Assembly: GCA_027486585.1 (NCBI GenBank) | Contig: JAIXOU010000122.1 | Location: 62,001 to 126,000 of the forward strand | Length of the DNA stretch: 64,000 nucleotides | Direction: 5' to 3' | DNA from: Verrucomicrobiaceae bacterium | GTDB taxonomy: Bacteria > Verrucomicrobiota > Verrucomicrobiia > Verrucomicrobiales > Verrucomicrobiaceae | Part shown: piece by piece, positions 4,483 through 61,039 of the stretch | How positions within the stretch are numbered: the first letter of the stretch is position 1 | Layout of the letters: the number at the start of each line of letters is the position of its first letter | The notes under the pieces: model-generated | What the model saw: the letters and a program-made list of their open reading frames with translations, nothing else | The model's database searches: none | Told to the model about the DNA's origin: nothing | Made by a program: the position numbers and the translations under genes

Positions 4483-4692
4483 ATGTGCCGAAGTCTAACC
4501 TTTTTATTCTGTGTCTTCTTTGCCGCTACCTTGCAGGGGCTTCCCCCAGCCATGTCCAGCCCTGAGGCATTCATGACCGAAATTGCCAGCAAGAAGTGGG
4601 AATGCTCTTACACGGCCTATCCAGAGCTTCGCTTTCTTGGGGACAAGATCGAGGCACTGTCTGCGGGGAAGATGGAGGTTCTTCGTTCTTAG
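4483..4692 (+). pseudogene. 5' fragment of a secreted protein gene, cut by a heptamer repeat
   Basis: The frame encodes 69 residues. It begins with a convincing signal peptide (CRSLTFLFCVFFAATLQG) and continues with SSPEAFMTEIASKKWECSYT. The frame then enters the GTTCTCG heptamer repeat at about 4684 and stops at once. A short mature part ending exactly where low-complexity repeat DNA begins suggests the 3' part of the gene was lost or replaced. The start at 4483 is chosen because upstream in-frame codons would precede the signal peptide with unlikely sequence. I do not recognise the family. It is divergent from the xylose-binding-like gene. Confidence 0.4.
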
Positions 4693-4745
4693 TTCCTCGT
4701 TCTTAGTTCTCGGTTCTCGGTTCTCGGTTCTCGGTTCTCGGTTCC
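4684..4745. repeat. Heptanucleotide tandem repeat (GTTCTCG/GTTCTTA)
   Basis: About nine successive 7-bp units, starting with variants (GTTCTTA, GTTCCTC) and then several near-identical GTTCTCG copies. The reverse complement (CGAGAAC) resembles the AGAACAG and AGAACGA heptamers found at 4983-5107 and 12772-12910, so one repeat family may be involved. It abuts the truncated secreted-protein frame on the left and a dispersed 110-bp repeat on the right. Confidence 0.8.
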
Positions 4746-4857
4746 GGGGCTTGGAGTCCCAACGGGACGATCCATCGCAGCCCAGGGCAGCGCCCTGGGT
4801 TATGCCAAGCAAAGACATCCGAGCCCTGAAGGGGCGGCCTATTAGCGCAGCGTCCGA
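4746..4857 (-). repeat. Dispersed ~110-bp repeat, copy A (inverted relative to copies B and C)
   Basis: The segment contains the phrases CTTGGAGTCCCAACGGGAC, CCCAGGGCAGCGCCCTGGG (a near-perfect hairpin) and GAGCCCTGAAGGGGCGGCC. The same phrases occur in reverse complement at 12425-12533 and 12589-12698. This is a dispersed, hairpin-bearing element with no convincing gene in it. Confidence 0.8.
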
Positions 4858-4982
4858 CAATCCAAGATCCGCGAAATGAGCCCTCTCGTAGAGCCACGGA
4901 ACCAGAGTTCAGAGAGATGAGAAAAGAGCGAAGGATGAGGCGTGAAAGATGAAAAAAAGAAGATGGAGGATAGCGGATAGAA

Positions 4983-5169
4983 GTCAGAGATCAGAGATCA
5001 GAGATCAGAGATCAGAGATCAGAGATCAGAGAACAGAGAACAGAGAACAGAGAACAGAGAACAAAGCACCAAGCACCAAGCACCAAGCACCAGAGATCAG
5101 AAATCAGAGATCAGCGATTAGAGATCATCCCTCCATCCCTCCATCCCTCCATCCCTCCATCCCTCCATC
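4983..5169. repeat. Compound heptamer/octamer microsatellite
   Basis: Consecutive blocks of 7-bp units: AGATCAG (about six copies), AGAACAG (about four) and CACCAAG (about four), then a degenerate AGATCAG stretch. An 8-bp block CCCTCCAT (about five copies, 5127-5169) follows. The blocks change by single-base steps, as expected from replication slippage plus drift. The octamer recurs at 5780-5816. Confidence 0.9.
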
Positions 5170-5661: not shown

Positions 5662-5779
5662 CACGCGATCCGGCTGCCCGCAGGGCGGGTCATTCGAGGC
5701 AATCCCCCGAAAGCGTCATCAAGGTAGGGAAGCCTCGTCCGATGACCCAGCTAGGAACGCGCTTCATCGCTCCATCACT

Positions 5780-5960
5780 CCATCCCTCCATCCCTCCATC
5801 CCTCCATCCCTCCATTCCACGACTTTGTCAGTTGGAAGGCAATTCCTTCGGAGACTCATTCAGCTCCTTCAACAAGGCGTCTCAGGCGTCGGCGTAGAAA
5901 ATAGTGGCGAGTCTTGGGTCAGACCGTTGCAGGTTGAATCTGGCCTCCGTGCAACCTAAC
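5780..5960. repeat. Second copy of the CCCTCCAT octamer plus its flanking module
   Basis: About five CCCTCCAT units lie at 5780-5816. About 75 bp further on, 5891-5960 (GGCGTAGAAAATAGTGGCGA...) resembles 5170-5240 (GGCGTATAAAATGATGGCGA...). The two modules flank the DUF883-like gene in direct orientation. The rest of the 5662-6029 stretch shows no gene. Confidence 0.7.
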
Positions 5961-8099: not shown

Positions 8100-8897
8100 A
8101 TGGCAATGCGGAAAAACTGGACGCGCGATGAGCTTCTCATCGCACTCAACATCTATCACAAACTCAATTTTGGTCAGTTGCATGCGAGGCAGCCTGTGAT
8201 CGTGAATCTTGCGGAAAAAATGGGCCGTGGAGCCAATAGTTTGGCAATGAAGTTGAACAATCTGGCATCACTTGATCCAGTTTTAAAATTGCGTGGCATC
8301 CAAGGTCTGTCTGGAGCCAGCGCTTTGGATCAGTCGGTTTGGAATGAGTTTCATCTTGATCTTAACGAAACCATTCCAGCCAGTGAAGAGGCGTTGAGGC
8401 AGTTGTTTGCGGCTGGTGAATCCACAGTGGTCGAGGTGCTGCCCAAAGAGGGAGTGAAGGTGAAAAAAGCTCCACCTCATGGCCCCACTGAGTTTTTGGC
8501 ATCCACGAAGCAGCGGCGCGGGCAGGAGTTCTTCCGTGATGCGGTGCTGAATAACTTTGGCGGTCGCTGCGGGGTAACACAGCTTGCTCTACGCGAGCTT
8601 TTAGTGGCCTCGCACATCCTGCCGTGGGGCATGAATGAAAAAGAACGGCTGAATGTTCGCAATGGGCTCGCGCTGTCCCGACTGTATGACGCTGCGTTTG
8701 ATCGTGGTCTGATTGCCTTCGATGAAAATCTGAAGCTTCTTCTATCCAACCGACTGAAACTAGAGCTGCCCCAGCGAGCCGTTGCCGAGAGCTTCGCCGC
8801 CTACGCTGGGCAATGCTTGATTTTGCCCAATGATGCCACTTTACCCGATCTCGCATTTCTTTCTGAACATCGGGCAAAGATATTCAGCCAATCATAG
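8100..8897 (+). CDS. HNH endonuclease (HNH_2-type, restriction endonuclease-like)
   Basis: 265 residues. The N-terminal part (WTRDELLIALNIYHKLNFGQ, MGRGANSLAMKLNNLASLDP) is the DNA-recognition-like domain usual in this family. The C-terminal part is an HNH_2 nuclease fold: FFRDAVLNNFGGRCGVTQ, then LLVASHILPWGMNEKERLNV with the catalytic His, and NGLALSRLYDAAFDRGLIAF. Length and domain order match HNH proteins annotated as putative restriction endonucleases. It stands alone without a methyltransferase, so it could be a solitary modification-dependent enzyme or the survivor of a lost system. Confidence 0.8.
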   Translation: MAMRKNWTRDELLIALNIYHKLNFGQLHARQPVIVNLAEKMGRGANSLAMKLNNLASLDPVLKLRGIQGLSGASALDQSVWNEFHLDLNETIPASEEALRQLFAAGESTVVEVLPKEGVKVKKAPPHGPTEFLASTKQRRGQEFFRDAVLNNFGGRCGVTQLALRELLVASHILPWGMNEKERLNVRNGLALSRLYDAAFDRGLIAFDENLKLLLSNRLKLELPQRAVAESFAAYAGQCLILPNDATLPDLAFLSEHRAKIFSQS

Positions 8898-9288
8898 CTG
8901 TATGCCTCGCTGAAGAAGGCGGTTGAGCTTGGATGAAGGCGGTTGGAGGGGTTTCACTTTGGCTGCCGCTGCACTATCCAAAGGTGGATCACGTGTTAGG
9001 CGGAGAGTTTGGGGCACTGGGAGGGACTGGAGGCGATGGCGGACTTGAAATTGCCGTAGCCGATGCTGGCGGTGGTGTTGCAGGACTCGGGCTTGCTGGA
9101 TGCTTTTCGTGCCATTGAGGGAATTAAGCCTATGAGAGCGGACGGTGAGACCGATGGCATGCAAAGAGGAAGTGAAGGGTGAAAAATGGAGCGATGCCGT
9201 ATCCCTTGTTGAGACTAGGGGCCGGATTCTTGAGAATTGAGGGCTTTGTTGAGACGCGGAGGGTGGATGTTGAGATTCACCGACTGAC
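8898..9288. other. Gene-free, G-rich spacer before the 21-bp array
   Basis: No convincing gene on either strand. The DNA is G-rich on the plus strand, with short internal repetitions (AAGGCGGTTG occurs twice near 8917-8949). It connects the HNH gene to the 21-bp-period array. Confidence 0.5.
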
Positions 9289-9770
9289 ATGAGCCTAAAT
9301 CTGACGGATTTAGGCGAAAGTTAGCAGGATTTGCCCGAAAATCAGCTGGGCGGGTGCGAAGGTTCGCAGGGATTTGGGAAATGTTTGACGGGATCGCGTG
9401 AAAAGGAGATGGAACTTGGGGCAAGTTCGCTGGGAGTGAGCGGAAAACAGACGGACTCGATGAAATTCCCTGCGGTGGTGTGCCTGTGTTTATTGACTTG
9501 GCTGAGATCCCGACGGACTTGGGCGAAAGTCTGACGAACCTGCGCGTAAGTCCGTCGGATGTGGGCAGAGATCTGATGAACTTGGATAAGCATCCAGCGA
9601 CTCTGAGGGAAAATCAAATGACCGCTGCTGTGTTCCGAAGAACTTGGAACGAAATCCTGCCGACTTGCGCAAGATACTGATGGATCTGTCGCTGAATCCA
9701 GCGGTGACGGGGGAAGAGCTTACCTTGGACCCTGAGGCCTTTAATCATCGGCTGCTGAAAACGAGTCGGA
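9289..9770 (+). repeat. Degenerate tandem array with 21-bp period (about 23 units), array 1
   Basis: Cutting the DNA every 21 bases from 9289 keeps a conserved core in register (TGGGCGAAA, four to five variable bases, then TGACGGA), with two single-base shifts near units 6 and 17. Because 21 bp is seven codons, open frames on both strands read as heptads. The best plus frame gives LGESLTN, LRVSPSD, VGRDLMN, LDKHPAT in succession (about 9498-9610). The frame from the ATG at 9289 (MSLNLTDLGES) meets a TAG after 11 codons, so the array is either a decayed gene or non-coding. It is related to array 2 at 34500-34760, which runs the other way. Confidence 0.75.
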
Positions 9771-9879
9771 AACCCTTCTGAAACCAAGCCCTGGTGCAAC
9801 TCAACGATCTTCCATTCCCTTTTCTGACTAAGCGGTAGCAGTGAGCAAAACAGCAGCACTCAGCGTGCCAATGTTTGGC

Positions 9880-10145: not shown

Positions 10146-10994
10146 TCATTCTTGGGCGGCTTTGAGCAGTTGGGCGGCTGCGTCCACCATGTCCTGACAA
10201 AGCGTGGTGCGGAGGAAGCGAGAGTCTTCGGATTCGCCTGATTGAGCCTGCCCGAAAACGAAGTGACTCGCCTTCACCGGACCGGGTGAGGTTTCCGTTT
10301 GGAAGTGCTCCTGCAACGTGCGCATGGCATCTGTGCAGGCGGGATTGCCCACACGGACTTCCTCTGCAAAGGCGGCAAAGGCAGCGGCGCTCCCGCCGTC
10401 GTAGTGACGCAGGGTGTAGAGGATGTCGAAGGCGTCCTTGGGCTGCTGACGGTCGCAGAAGGCGCGGAGCTTGAGCGCGAGGAAGGGGCCGACTTCGCAG
10501 ACGCGGGCCACGAGTTTTTGATCCGCTCCGTGGAGGTCCACTCCCGTTACTTCGATGGATCGGGCCGTGGCCAGGGCGCGGTTCACGCCGGGCATGATGC
10601 TCGCGGTGATGTCCTCGACCTGTGCCGATCCACTGGTGCGCGGCGGGCGCTCGACGAGGAAGTCCACGTAGATGGGGAAATCGCCGATGGTCTTTTCCAG
10701 CCGGGCCGGGTGCTTTTCACTTCTCTTGAAGCCTTGGCCCGCGAGTTCCCAAAACAGGCTTCCGTATTGCCCGGAGCCAGCGGCCAGAGCGATGCCGAGA
10801 TCGACATCGAGCGTGGCCGGACGCGGCAGACTGCGGTGCTGGGTGAGGTCTCCACAAAGATATTTGGGAACAAGGCCACCCACAAGCACGAGATCGCCAT
10901 GCCATGAGCCGAGCGTTGACCACAGGGTTAGAAAAGCGCTCTCTGCGAGGGCGGTGTAACGCGGATCGTATTCGCTGTAGGTCTCGTATTTCAT
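10146..10994 (-). CDS. AbiEii-like nucleotidyltransferase toxin (type IV toxin-antitoxin)
   Basis: 282 residues from the ATG at 10994, which overlaps the upstream gene's stop as ATGA, a strong sign of translational coupling. The N-terminal half has a minimal nucleotidyltransferase fold: LVLVGGLVPKYL supplies the GG motif and RPATLDVDLGIAL the Asp-x-Asp metal ligands, as in AbiEii/MenT-like enzymes. Such toxins transfer nucleotides to target RNAs and cause growth arrest or abortive infection. The C-terminal half is helical and unclassified. The partner gene encodes the AbiEi-like antitoxin. Mechanism and phage range are inferred only from the family. Confidence 0.72.
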   Translation of the reverse strand: MKYETYSEYDPRYTALAESAFLTLWSTLGSWHGDLVLVGGLVPKYLCGDLTQHRSLPRPATLDVDLGIALAAGSGQYGSLFWELAGQGFKRSEKHPARLEKTIGDFPIYVDFLVERPPRTSGSAQVEDITASIMPGVNRALATARSIEVTGVDLHGADQKLVARVCEVGPFLALKLRAFCDRQQPKDAFDILYTLRHYDGGSAAAFAAFAEEVRVGNPACTDAMRTLQEHFQTETSPGPVKASHFVFGQAQSGESEDSRFLRTTLCQDMVDAAAQLLKAAQE

Positions 10995-12049
10995 GGTCTG
11001 CAGAATCCCTCCCATTCCCGCAGTGCCGCGGCGGCCTCCGGTCCGCGGAGTCCGGTGCGTTTGAGGTCGAGGTAGATTTGAGCATCTGTGACGAGCGTTA
11101 GACCGCTGCGCGTCTGCGTCTCGGTCAGGATGCCCTCGTCATCCGAGACATGCAGCCAGAGTTTCCCCCCTTCGGTGACCTGACGGAGTCCAAGTTGCTC
11201 CACTGTCGCCGCGTCAGGAAGGCGTTCGACATAAGCGGAGCAGACCACCGGTTCCGTGTAGGGATGCCGGGTCCATGCGGCGGTCCACTGAGTGAAGGCG
11301 AGAGGAATTTTTTCTGCGGCAGCCCATTGTTGGAGGCGTTGCGCAATCTCCTGCGGCGGGCCGAAGTAACCAGCATAGGTCGTGGTGCGCGTGCGTTTCG
11401 GGAAATGGTCCGACTCCACCCACTCATTGAGCAACCCATGCCAGTCGCGCAGCCGGAACTCACGGGCACTGGTCTTCACCAAGAGCCCCTGACTGATGAG
11501 GTGCTGCACAATCCGTGAGACAAGGCCGGAGCTAGCCTTGGTGCGAGGCACGATTTCCGCCTGCGTCCAAGTGCGGTCCCGATCCGTGAGTAGGCACCGG
11601 ACAATGCGGGCGCTCTTACCAACGAAGATGTTTCGCGGCTCCAATTCGTAGCTGAATGAGCGGCCCGGCAGCGGACGGCGATCCACCAGCAGACCGGGAG
11701 CGCGAAGCCAACAGCGACCATTGAGGTCGATGGCAGCAATGCCATGTTCCTTGCAAGCCGCCACGATACGCGAGGACAACTCGGGAGCGACAATTAGAGG
11801 TCGCAAAGAGGAGGGAGATCCACTGAGGTTTTCCAGCCACGGCAGGCTGGGCTTGAGTTCATAGACTGGATGAAAGGCAAACCTTTGGTTATCCAGTTCC
11901 AATTCTACATGGTCGAGGCGCTGCCAGTCTCCGCCGGGCGGCAGGTGCCAGCGCAAATCAGGGTCCTCGGGCAGGAACTCCCGGAAATGGAGGGCCAGCT
12001 CGCTTTCGTGGCGGATAGTTGCGCCTTTACTGGAATCAAGCGTCTTCAT
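10991..12049 (-). CDS. AbiEi-like antitoxin/transcriptional regulator (type IV toxin-antitoxin)
   Basis: 352 residues. The central part has a winged-helix signature (DRTWTQAEIVPRTKASSGLV then SRIVQHLISQGLLVKTSARE), preceded by a domain containing IAAIDLNGRCWLRAPGLLVD. The C-terminal region (WTAAWTRHPYTEPVVCSAYV...) resembles the large AbiEi family regulators. The gene overlaps the nucleotidyltransferase gene by 4 nt, the usual antitoxin-first order. AbiEi proteins bind inverted repeats in their own promoter; a matching inverted repeat lies 21-54 nt upstream of this ATG (12070-12103). Antitoxin function is inferred from family and context. Confidence 0.7.
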   Translation of the reverse strand: MKTLDSSKGATIRHESELALHFREFLPEDPDLRWHLPPGGDWQRLDHVELELDNQRFAFHPVYELKPSLPWLENLSGSPSSLRPLIVAPELSSRIVAACKEHGIAAIDLNGRCWLRAPGLLVDRRPLPGRSFSYELEPRNIFVGKSARIVRCLLTDRDRTWTQAEIVPRTKASSGLVSRIVQHLISQGLLVKTSAREFRLRDWHGLLNEWVESDHFPKRTRTTTYAGYFGPPQEIAQRLQQWAAAEKIPLAFTQWTAAWTRHPYTEPVVCSAYVERLPDAATVEQLGLRQVTEGGKLWLHVSDDEGILTETQTRSGLTLVTDAQIYLDLKRTGLRGPEAAAALREWEGFCRP

Positions 12050-12129: not shown

Positions 12130-12424
12130 ATGAAGGTTTTGGGTAAACCAATTCATATTCCCAAGGCAGCAAGGGATTTTCTGGCCACTTGGCTGCTCTG
12201 AAACCACTTTGTAAGCGCCTTCGGAAGCGCCGTGGTCGCACTCTCGGTGCGGCATCCGTTTGCGCCTGCGTTTCTCCGCCGACAAACAGCGGGATGCTCA
12301 GGTTCCCTTCCTTCGCCCGGATTTCCTCAATGGGCACAAGGCGGCTAAAGCCGAAGCCACTTTCCAAGCCCCAGAGCGGCAGAACCAAGAAAAGCTCCTT
12401 CTTCGCAATAACGGCAACGCAATC
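12130..12424. other. Gene-free stretch with short hairpin repeats
   Basis: No convincing gene. It contains GGCTAAAGCCGAAGCC-type inverted sequences like those between the two dispersed repeat copies downstream; I take it as a repeat-rich spacer. Confidence 0.45.
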
Positions 12425-12752
12425 GGACGCGGCGCTATTAGGTCGCCCTTTCAGGGCTCGGATGTCTTTGCTTGGCAACCCCAGGGCGCTGCCCTGGGCT
12501 GCGATAGACCGTCCCGTTGGGACTCCAAGCCCCAGACGGCAGAACCAAGAACCTACGATGCATTTCGGCTGAAGCCGAAGCGACTTAGGGACGCGGCGCT
12601 ATTAGGTCGCCCCTTCAGGGCTCGGATGTTTTTGCTTGGCAACCCCAGGGCGCTGCCCTGGGCTGCGATAGAGCGTCCCGTTGGGACTCCAAGCCCCAGA
12701 CGGTAGAACAACGAACCTACGATGCATTTCGGCTGAAGCCGAAGCCAGTTTC
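12425..12752 (+). repeat. Dispersed repeat copies B and C as a ~164-bp tandem duplication
   Basis: Two near-identical units (12425-12588 and 12589-12752). Each has GACGCGGCGCTATTAGGTCG, a CCAGGGCGCTGCCCTGG hairpin and CGTTGGGACTCCAAGCCCC, then ACGATGCATTTCGGCTGAAG. The first ~110 bp of each match copy A at 4746-4857 in the opposite orientation. Frames through it read as low-value peptides and are not taken as genes. Confidence 0.85.
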
Positions 12753-34484: not shown

Positions 34485-34790
34485 TCAAATTCCGTTGCAA
34501 GTCGAATGGCAGTCTTTTTTAACTCGTCTGCGGAGTGCACCACAGGGGCAGCCGAGCACGTCAGCCTGTCTGCTGACCGGACTAGCCCGGTTGCCGAGTT
34601 TGTCAGCTTTAGGGCTGAGCGATTCAGCCAGCTTGCCGATCTTATCAGCCCGTTTGCTGGATGCGCCATCTGTTTTGCCGAGCATGTCAGATGGGCTGCC
34701 GAGTGCGCCAGTCGGTTTGAAGGATAAGTTGCCAGGCTCACAGTCTTTATCACCTGCTATTTCTGATACAGTTTGTTCATTTTCAACCAT
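34485..34790 (-). CDS. Possible small heptapeptide-repeat protein (array 2 frame)
   Basis: A 101-residue frame from the ATG at 34790. It starts with VENEQTVSEIAGDKDCEPGN, then a run of degenerate seven-residue repeats of the form LGKxAD (ALGSPSD, MLGKTDG, KIGKLAE, KLGNRAS). The first 24 residues recur, with conservative and synonymous changes, at 37973-38047, which suggests the leader is or was translated. There is no obvious ribosome-binding site and no recognised family. It could equally be a repeat element read by chance, because 21-bp units keep several frames open. Confidence 0.35.
   Translation of the reverse strand: MVENEQTVSEIAGDKDCEPGNLSFKPTGALGSPSDMLGKTDGASSKRADKIGKLAESLSPKADKLGNRASPVSRQADVLGCPCGALRRRVKKDCHSTCNGI
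34500..34760 (-). repeat. Degenerate tandem array with 21-bp period (about 12 units), array 2
   Basis: On the plus strand units such as CCGAGTTTGTCAGCTTTAGG, CCGATCTTATCAGCCCGTTT and CCGAGCATGTCAGATGGGCT follow each other every 21 bp. Read on the minus strand the unit is roughly CTCGGCAAACGGGCTGACAA, which lines up with the array 1 core (TGGGCGAAA...CTGACGGA) at about half of the positions. The two arrays therefore look like one family in opposite orientation. Confidence 0.75.
34723..34790 (-). repeat. Array-2 leader segment, copy 1 (direct repeat with 37979-38047)
   Basis: ATAAGTTGCCAGGCTCACAG and CAGTTTGTTCATTTTCAA occur here and at 37979-38047 with the same spacing; over about 65 bp most bases match. 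The two copies flank the Rhs cassette in direct orientation. Confidence 0.8.
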
Positions 34791-37972: not shown

Positions 37973-38047
37973 TCAGATAGATAAGTTGCCAGGCTCACAG
38001 TCTGTCTCGACTGCTATTTCAGATGCAGTTTGTTCATTTTCAATCAT
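37973..38047 (-). CDS. Second copy of the array-2 leader peptide (24 aa, solo)
   Basis: The ATG at 38047 starts IENEQTASEIAVETDCEPGN, ending LSI and a TGA. It parallels the first 24 residues of the frame at 34790 (VENEQTVSEIAGDKDCEPGN). Several differences are third-position or conservative. No 21-bp repeats follow here. The segment lies 67 bp before the start of the REP-associated transposase gene, on the opposite strand. Confidence 0.35.
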   Translation of the reverse strand: MIENEQTASEIAVETDCEPGNLSI

Positions 38048-38113: not shown

Positions 38114-39193
38114 ATGCGCCAACGTCGTCTCAAGGCTCCTGCTAACTCTTTTTCCGATACTGCTTTCTACCACTGCATCTCCAGGGTGGTGAACAGAGAC
38201 TTTGTTCTCGGGGATGAGGAGCGGGAGGAGTTTGTGAGGCTGATGCGGGTTTATGAGCGGCTCTGCGGGGTGCGGGTGGTGACTTATTGTGTGATGTCCA
38301 ATCACTTCCATGTTCTAGTGGGTGTACCGAAGAAACCGGAGGTGATGCCCACAAATCAGGAACTCATCGCTACGGTGAAAGCTTCGTTGGGCGATTTGGC
38401 GGCGACGAACTTGGAATATGATCTGGAGCAGGCGGCAAAGATCAAGTCGGTGCAGTGGGAGGAAGAGATCCGCGAGCGTTATCTGCGACGCATGTGGGAC
38501 GTGTCTTCTTTCATGAAGACGCTCAAGCAACGCTTCACTCAGTGGTTTAATAAGCGGCATAAGCGGAGGGGGACGCTGTGGGAAGATCGCTTTCGTAGCG
38601 TACTGGTGCAGTCAGCAGGTGAACCTGTGGCAGCCATGGCGGCTTACATTGATCTCAATCCGATCCGCGCAAGCATGGTGGAAGATCCGCAGGAATACCG
38701 CTGGAGCGGCTACGGAGCTGCGATGGGAGGCGATGCTCTTGCTGTGGAGGGATTCCGAGAGATTGATCGGATTAAACATGCGGCAATCATTGAGACGGAC
38801 TCAGGGACGGGGAACGAAACAAAACCGCAGTGGTCAGCGACAGAAGTGCTGGAGCGTTATCGGCAACTGCTCTACGGACGAGGTGAGGAACGCGGTGTGG
38901 CCGAGGATGGATCAGCTTTGAAAAAAGGCTTCACGCGGCAAAAAACTCAAGAGGTGCTGGCAGAAGGTGGGCGGCTACCAAGGAGCGCCTATCTGCGCTG
39001 CCGAGTGAGGTATTTTACCGATGGCGCAGTTATTGGCAGTAAAGACTTCGTCAACGAAGTGTTCACGAATCTCAAAGAGCGCTTTGGTCAGAAGAGGAAG
39101 ACAGGCGCGCGACTGATGCGCGGCCTAGCAAGGGATGAGCGGCTTTATTCGATGCGTGATTTGAAGGTGGATTCAGTGAATCTAGGTTCTTAA
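38114..39193 (+). CDS. REP-associated tyrosine transposase (RAYT, IS200-like Y1 fold)
   Basis: 359 residues. RAYTs are domesticated HUH-type single-strand transposases that spread REP-like palindromes. The HUH motif is present as VMSNHFHVLVG (His64, His66). The probable catalytic Tyr178 lies in AAYIDLNPIRASM. The N-terminal NSFSDTAFYHCISRVVNRDF and GTLWEDRFRSVLV are family hallmarks. The C-terminal 120 residues form an extra domain usual in the longer verrucomicrobial RAYTs. Upstream DNA carries AGGGTCTGTCCCT-type sequence. It sits beside one copy of the array-2 leader segment, so it could be linked to the spread of that element. No flanking inverted repeats were resolved. Confidence 0.82.
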   Translation: MRQRRLKAPANSFSDTAFYHCISRVVNRDFVLGDEEREEFVRLMRVYERLCGVRVVTYCVMSNHFHVLVGVPKKPEVMPTNQELIATVKASLGDLAATNLEYDLEQAAKIKSVQWEEEIRERYLRRMWDVSSFMKTLKQRFTQWFNKRHKRRGTLWEDRFRSVLVQSAGEPVAAMAAYIDLNPIRASMVEDPQEYRWSGYGAAMGGDALAVEGFREIDRIKHAAIIETDSGTGNETKPQWSATEVLERYRQLLYGRGEERGVAEDGSALKKGFTRQKTQEVLAEGGRLPRSAYLRCRVRYFTDGAVIGSKDFVNEVFTNLKERFGQKRKTGARLMRGLARDERLYSMRDLKVDSVNLGS

Positions 39194-60733: not shown

Positions 60734-60762
60734 TTGACAAAGTTGGTTCGCCGTGCGTTAAT
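60734..60762 (+). promoter_or_regulatory. Sigma-70-like promoter driving the c-di-AMP riboswitch
   Basis: TTGACA at 60734-60739, 17-bp spacer and GTTAAT at 60757-60762. The predicted start at about 60769 coincides with the 5' edge of the riboswitch aptamer. Confidence 0.5.
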
Positions 60763-60767
60763 TTTCT

Positions 60768-60922
60768 TGCAGCCGAGGCCACGACTCCTTCCTGAGTGGT
60801 GGCGCGGGGGAACCAACTTCCTAGAAAATCGCAAGAGACTTTAGGATGGGGCGCACGAGGACGGGAAACCGTCTGAGGGGTCACTTCCAAGACCTAGTCC
60901 GACAGCTAACCTCGTAGGCCTT
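60768..60922 (+). ncRNA. c-di-AMP riboswitch (ydaO-yuaA type)
   Basis: The conserved blocks of the ydaO-yuaA aptamer occur in order: GCCGAGGCC near 60772, GCGGGGGAACC at 60804-60814, GGGGCG near 60848, a GACGGGAAACCGTC hairpin, then CCGACAGCTAACC and CCTCGTAGGC to 60919. The 3' block closely matches this family. The aptamer binds cyclic di-AMP and usually turns genes off when it is high; known targets are cell-wall hydrolases and ion or osmolyte transporters. The platform probably uses the hairpin CCCGGTGC-GAGT-GCATCGGG (60943-60962). The nearest sizeable plus-strand gene is the SPFH protein at 61501. Confidence 0.75.
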
Positions 60923-61039
60923 ATTGGGAGGGCGATCCTCTGCCCGGTGCGAGTGCATCGGGACCATGGTTTCCCCAGATAGACCTACTTTTGTAGGGCG
61001 GAAGTCCGCCATGCTAAAGTCGTTAGAGAAACCACATCT

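Follow-up and report, generated by a model that had tools for sequence, protein, structure and literature searches.

What is the degenerate 21-bp repeat array that lies between two converging genes in this Verrucomicrobiaceae genome, and was it once part of a gene? The window, by which we mean the whole 64,000-nucleotide stretch analysed, sits in the 6.5-Mb draft genome of a soil-and-water type bacterium (G000). Within it, array 1 occupies positions 9286 to 9703 of the forward strand with some 20 well-marked units of 21 bp; an iterated weight matrix of that width gives the consensus unit GACTTGGGCGAAAATCCGACG and, when weak ends are admitted (first unit 2.3 bits, last unit 4.8 bits), extends the array to 22 units from 9265 to 9724. 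Identity at lag 21 across 9289-9770 is 0.410, compared with a mean of 0.2595 (sd 0.021, maximum 0.328) in 2000 first-order Markov shuffles, and it is likewise elevated at lags 42 and 63 (0.432 and 0.391). Array 1 is thus a degenerate tandem repeat, or minisatellite, with head-to-tail units at a constant period above chance. The sequence-only reading had described a 21-bp-period degenerate array starting at 9289, and the excess at lag 21 (0.41 against 0.26 in shuffled sequence), found by the autocorrelation that it had proposed as a check, bears this out. It had also counted two single-base slips, and the weight matrix places exactly two 20-bp steps, 9475 to 9495 (forward strand, 9475-9515) and 9600 to 9620 (forward strand, 9600-9640). 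Its figure of about 23 units over 9289-9770 is somewhat too generous: there are 20-22, and the final stretch of about 45 bp (9725-9770) holds no unit, local lag-21 identity being back at background. Run by itself, Tandem Repeats Finder reports array 1 as 9512-9585 only.

Array 1 has a few relatives. A collinear copy that keeps both slips is present on another contig of the same genome (C106) and, in a longer form, in the close species G061; array 1 and its collinear relative are 63% identical over 470 columns, and a piece related to the latter is found in G003. A phylum sample of 387 genomes, which evidently excluded G061, gave a match to array 1 at 1e-5 in G000 alone. Among 48 genomes of the genus, a unit model (R1), derived from a MAFFT alignment of the kind that displaces repeat arrays by whole units, matched at E < 1e-4 in G000, G061 and G003 only; at E up to 10 every genome matches, which is noise. 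We found no further copy of array 1 at its own locus.

The gene 5' of array 1 encodes an HNH_2 protein (8100-8897, forward strand; Pfam PF13391, E 1.3e-8), and an AbiEii-like gene converges on the array from the other side (10146-11015, reverse strand); its match to Pfam PF08843 (E 6.8e-4) falls short of the curated threshold. Array 1 therefore lies between converging genes and is 5' of neither. The description of this neighbourhood as a graveyard of restriction and toxin-antitoxin genes is not clearly right, as the HNH_2 gene is a 265-aa ORF, with a likewise 265-aa ortholog in G061, and the AbiEii match is sub-threshold. At the orthologous HNH locus of G061, array 1 is absent: the two genomes match at 92% up to window position 9011, and the match resumes at 9203-9280 and then ends. 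This last segment is the terminal part of a dispersed repeat; the repeat ends shortly before array 1 and in G061 is present without the array. A second dispersed repeat of about 63 bp (9762-9825) follows just after array 1, and copies about 90% identical to it occur, several among the matches listed, in G000, G003, G024 and G061. We considered a tie between the array and toxin-antitoxin or HNH genes: array 1 is 3' of the AbiEii-like gene, and its relative adjoins a vapBC-like pair, lying 3' of the vapC-like ORF (named and read by eye). With only two such cases, and with no array at the orthologous HNH locus of G061, this tie was rejected. Elsewhere in the window, dispersed repeats at 8962-9074 and 12213-12353 have matches in several genomes of the genus, and 7-bp and 8-bp tandem arrays lie at 4678-5129 and 5760-5822, the 7-bp type being present also in the G016 and G019 samples. 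Rfam gave three matches in the window and none at array 1; a 164-bp tandem duplication at 12425-12745 carries an Acido-Lenti-1 RNA match in each copy (12480-12524 and 12644-12688), and a c-di-AMP riboswitch match (55.3 bits) lies at 60761-60935.

Does array 1 encode anything? None of its six frames is open: over 146 codons the plus frames hold 7, 10 and 4 stops and the minus frames 1, 3 and 3. The 74 differences from the G061 relative fall 28/20/26 by codon position, counted in absolute coordinates, and are thus without codon-position bias, and three ORFs of array 1 have no Pfam match. The heptads quoted from it, of the LGESLTN type, can indeed be read in one plus frame, but the frames hold stops, and for array 1 itself the suggestion of a decaying repeat protein finds no support in the stops, the even substitutions or the Pfam searches. 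That array 1 still encodes a repeat protein is very improbable; one minus frame is interrupted by only one stop over its 146 codons, as such a protein might lead one to expect, but the slips break every frame. Array 1 has no present coding function.

A second proposal was that the tandem element is under length constraint. Five comparisons between array copies, which are not independent since one copy was used three times, show 400 substitutions and hardly any indels, those few being small and for the most part self-compensating. The homologous flanks, which lie mostly outside arrays, are also poor in gaps (about 8 gap openings in roughly 346 differences), so no length constraint is claimed for the arrays. 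Array 1 might also be a live DNA element, a row of protein-binding sites or of RNA hairpins. A period of 21 bp corresponds to two helical turns, the spacing that such binding sites would have, and the consensus unit of the relative is partly palindromic (p 0.006). Against this, no compensatory change was found at any axis, including the best dyad axis (z -0.4 and -1.0), the dyad of array 1 itself is at chance (p 0.07 and 0.34), and the array is absent from the orthologous locus of the close species. We rejected array 1 as a hairpin or dyad array on these grounds and regard a live element of either kind as improbable.

Are there similar arrays elsewhere? A genome free of them had been named as grounds against the observation, and similar arrays are present. 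Array 2 (34504-34755) comprises 12 units of 21 bp and is 42 bp, or two units, longer in G061. Its 3' end (34723-34790) recurs with 90% identity at 37980-38047, just before an ORF (38114-39193) that looks by eye like a REP-type transposase. We took a census in samples of G000 (464 kb), G016 (600 kb), G049 (180 kb), G039 (220 kb) and, at 200 kb each, G018, G019, G023, G034 and G042, collecting repeats of lag 10-70 with a score of at least 22 and excluding 7- and 8-bp arrays and arrays in evident genes. The long arrays of G000 and G016 have chiefly a period of 21 or 42: in G000 these are array 1, array 2, the F1 array L047:19441-19893 and a 42/63-bp array in L046, and in G016 they are L077, L066, L069 and L072, which an automatic ORF mask scored as coding and which were taken as arrays by reading. 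Exceptions in period are L078 (22 bp), L077:10337 (52) and L074 (54), and in the samples scanned the other long non-coding periods are single cases. The two G023 arrays (48 and 64 bp) both lie within open frames, and the samples of G018, G019, G034, G039, G042 and G049 contain no 21-bp array at a score of at least 22. A CRISPR-like array with 64-66-bp spacing occurs in the G042 sample (L132:3737-4209). The units of array 1, F1, array 2, L077 and L066/L069 are mutually unrelated; only 4 of 36 pairs compared are related, all of them inside F1 or L066/L069.

Several of these arrays have a common neighbour. F1 arrays immediately precede a gene for an Fn3-like protein of about 246 aa in G000 (contig C51), G066, G061, where that gene is interrupted, and G293, which is another genus of the family; the G016 arrays L077, L069 and L072 each have a different member of a second Fn3-like family on their 3' side. 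F1-type arrays also occur without such a gene, in G000 (C139 and C134) and in G003 (C151); the C139 array is 77% identical to the gene-linked C51 array and has no Fn3-like gene within 1.5 kb on either side. A scan of the named genomes with a two-unit F1 pattern found nothing. For family 1 the Pfam fn3 match is below cut-off, and AlphaFold2, applied to nine proteins, predicts helices at 48-134 followed by an Fn3-like domain (mean pLDDT 78.6, pTM 0.60), with an Fn3 domain, 3n1f_C, as the best PDB match of the model (E 1.7e-5). The family-2 protein of L077 has no Pfam match, and family 2 was named Fn3-like from overall look alone. The predicted Fn3-like structure gives no function for the array. 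A small HTH gene (L157:829-1128; HTH_3 above cut-off) and apparent decayed copies of its start region (L146, L152 and L153) lie near F1 arrays; considered as a clue to array 1, this gene showed no tie to it.

How regular is the association? An alignment search of the named genomes with family 1 gave 14 loci, 11 of them with the 5' end of the gene (L226, L234 and L235 were left out for want of it). All 11 have a 21-bp-type array upstream; five are re-finds of loci that suggested the idea and six are new, titled Verrucomicrobia, uncultured bacterium, Verrucomicrobiaceae, Spartobacteria and, twice, Chthoniobacteraceae, although two of the new ones, L238 and L239 from one assembly, rest on only 31 and 22 matched residues. 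Over as much as 700 bp of upstream sequence the top lag is 21, 42 or 63 in every case, with scores of 30-105 against maxima of 8-11 in 20 shuffles each; downstream, L239 alone has a 21-type top lag (42, score 11.8). Family 2 is present in 20 of the 48 genus genomes, at 30 loci, 24 of which could be tested, the six without 300 bp upstream or a start being left out together with listed matches without a locus. Here 22 of 24 upstream stretches have a top lag of 21, 42 or 63 (scores 18.8-172.6; L247 and L248 do not), and no downstream stretch has a top lag of this type. The linked loci are L227-L233 and L236-L239 for family 1 and lie among L240-L269 for family 2, L240 being L077 itself. As background, 7 of 890 genes have an upstream array at a score of at least 18 over lags 15-63, a rule under which every tested array locus of either family scores above 18; genes were taken here by a simple longest-ORF rule that omitted those of L069/L070 and L072, and the seven include the L077 family-2 locus and some 7-bp arrays. 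The genome that holds array 1 has its own family-2 gene with a linked array (L252, contig C1).

In family 2 the linked arrays keep a reading frame. Counted relative to the gene, frame +1 runs through the array without a stop at 21 of 22 loci, against 11 and 9 for frames 0 and +2, and this holds for units that are mostly unrelated to one another (22 of 231 pairs related). Read from stop to stop, the +1 ORFs of the 21 loci span 89-283 codons, and in 17 of the 21, all except L260, L244, L253 and L267, an ATG or GTG in that frame precedes the array. We read the junction with the gene at 18 of the 22 loci (L251, L263, L267 and L259 were left out). At 15 of these the array ORF ends at the start of the Fn3-like gene, as ATGA in L246, L249, L252, L253, L255, L258, L262 and L269 and as TGATG in L240, L241, L242, L245, L260, L261 and L265; L257 has a 2-nt gap, and in L243 and L244 the overlap is about 25 nt. 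The junction ATG is in frame with the Fn3-like gene; in most cases it lies some 35 codons upstream of the initially assumed start, with a tryptophan-rich stretch after it. From the array to the assumed start, frame 0 is open in 9 of 22 loci, +1 in 3 and +2 in 4, a pattern that fits expectation if the true gene start lies upstream. Variability peaks at third codon positions in 13 of the 22 arrays when frame +1 is taken, in 3 for frame 0 and in 6 for frame +2. The family-2 heptapeptides themselves show no conservation.

Family 1 has a looser arrangement. Of 13 arrays, among them the slipped L216, L225 and L238, 9 are open in frame +1, 4 in frame 0 and 6 in frame +2, and the ends of the array ORFs vary (-38 to +241), with no stop/start overlap with the gene. 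Heptads like FSVAEKT recur in several groups, and cross-locus heptad similarity reaches z 10.5 in frame +1 and 9.5 in another frame; this is no independent proof, because the DNA units are related and the second frame is almost equal. The repeat-protein option, which array 1 itself does not bear out, thus has support at the level of the class, where an open frame is fixed relative to the gene in 21 of 22 family-2 loci and 9 of 13 in family 1; BLOSUM-against-column-shuffle tests gave weak results, specific to no single frame. From these frames and junctions we infer that the upstream ORFs of the linked arrays may be translated and that coupling to the Fn3-like gene may be their role.

Is array 1 a member of this class? 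It shares period, unit number and degeneracy with the Fn3-linked arrays. However, tblastn with both families found no Fn3-like gene in the window, the array 1 unit is unrelated to family-1 arrays (all p above 0.08), and comparison with 22 family-2 arrays gave weak hints only (with L265, z 2.8 for array 1 and 3.3 for its relative). Array 1 was not filed as a class member because it has no Fn3-like gene, open frame or clearly related unit. Common descent of array 1 and the F1 arrays was considered and rejected: their layout is alike, with two 1-base slips six units apart, but there is no sequence similarity, and we therefore leave the likeness as coincidence or very old. The same findings favor the main rival, by which array 1 is an ordinary intergenic minisatellite, produced by replication slippage, never coding and unconnected to the Fn3-linked arrays, since neither gene, frame nor unit similarity ties it to the class. 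Its position within a mosaic of dispersed repeats, in a genome that also has simple arrays of the 7-, 8- and 20-bp types, agrees with this account, which is distinctly possible; it leaves unexplained why unrelated non-coding arrays of the genus have a period of exactly 21 bp.

Our best reading, to which we give a probability of roughly one half, is that array 1 is a decayed orphan and a relic of the Fn3-linked kind of array, from a lineage that was not sampled. It is supported by the period, unit number and degeneracy shared with the class, by the strong tie of the class to Fn3-like genes, by the isolated occurrence of other long non-coding periods in the samples, by the existence of orphans of the class, such as the C139 array, and by the linked L252 in the same genome. 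Array 1 may, then, descend from the Fn3-linked class. We propose that it was probably the repeat part of an upstream ORF like those that precede Fn3-like genes in other members of the phylum. With a unit of exactly seven codons, gain or loss of whole units would preserve the frame, and the linked ORF would stay open while the heptapeptide drifts. Where the ORF stops at the Fn3-like start codon, as in family 2, translation of the repeats would hand ribosomes on to that gene. Array 1 would later have lost both gene and frame and remained among dispersed repeats. More tentatively, array 1 may be the fossil of a new bacterial leader type, a hypervariable ORF of seven-codon repeats that is kept open in frame and not in peptide and passes ribosomes to an Fn3-like gene by stop/start overlap, occurring in several Verrucomicrobiota groups with repeats that are mostly unrelated.

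Known systems resemble parts of this picture. Bacterial minisatellites and VNTR loci consist of degenerate head-to-tail units, as do these arrays, and the 42-bp difference in array 2 between close species is of their kind; unlike them, the arrays described here have a 21-bp period that is fixed across unrelated units, and the linked ones are fixed in place and frame in front of one type of gene. Translated leader ORFs with a stop/start overlap are a form of translational coupling, and the ATGA and TGATG junctions of family 2 are like theirs, whereas the family-2 leader is a long heptad-repeat ORF with an unconserved peptide, and array 1 has neither leader ORF nor overlap. REP and BIME elements are dispersed palindromic repeats; short dispersed repeats flank both array 1 and array 2, but array 1 is itself head-to-tail and lacks compensated hairpins. 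Finally, heptad-repeat hypothetical ORFs of Bacteroidota share the period of seven codons. Full-text searches of open-licence papers turned up no account of arrays like these or of a connection with Fn3-like genes.

Taken by itself array 1 looks like a relic, yet it points to a testable rule: two families of Fn3-like genes have in front of them arrays whose period is fixed and whose sequence is mostly unconserved, and in family 2 these arrays hold to a single reading frame with respect to the gene. If they are translated, the linked arrays would be long leader ORFs in which selection acts on openness and frame, not on the peptide, and would provide naturally occurring systems in which to study translational coupling and the instability of repeats.
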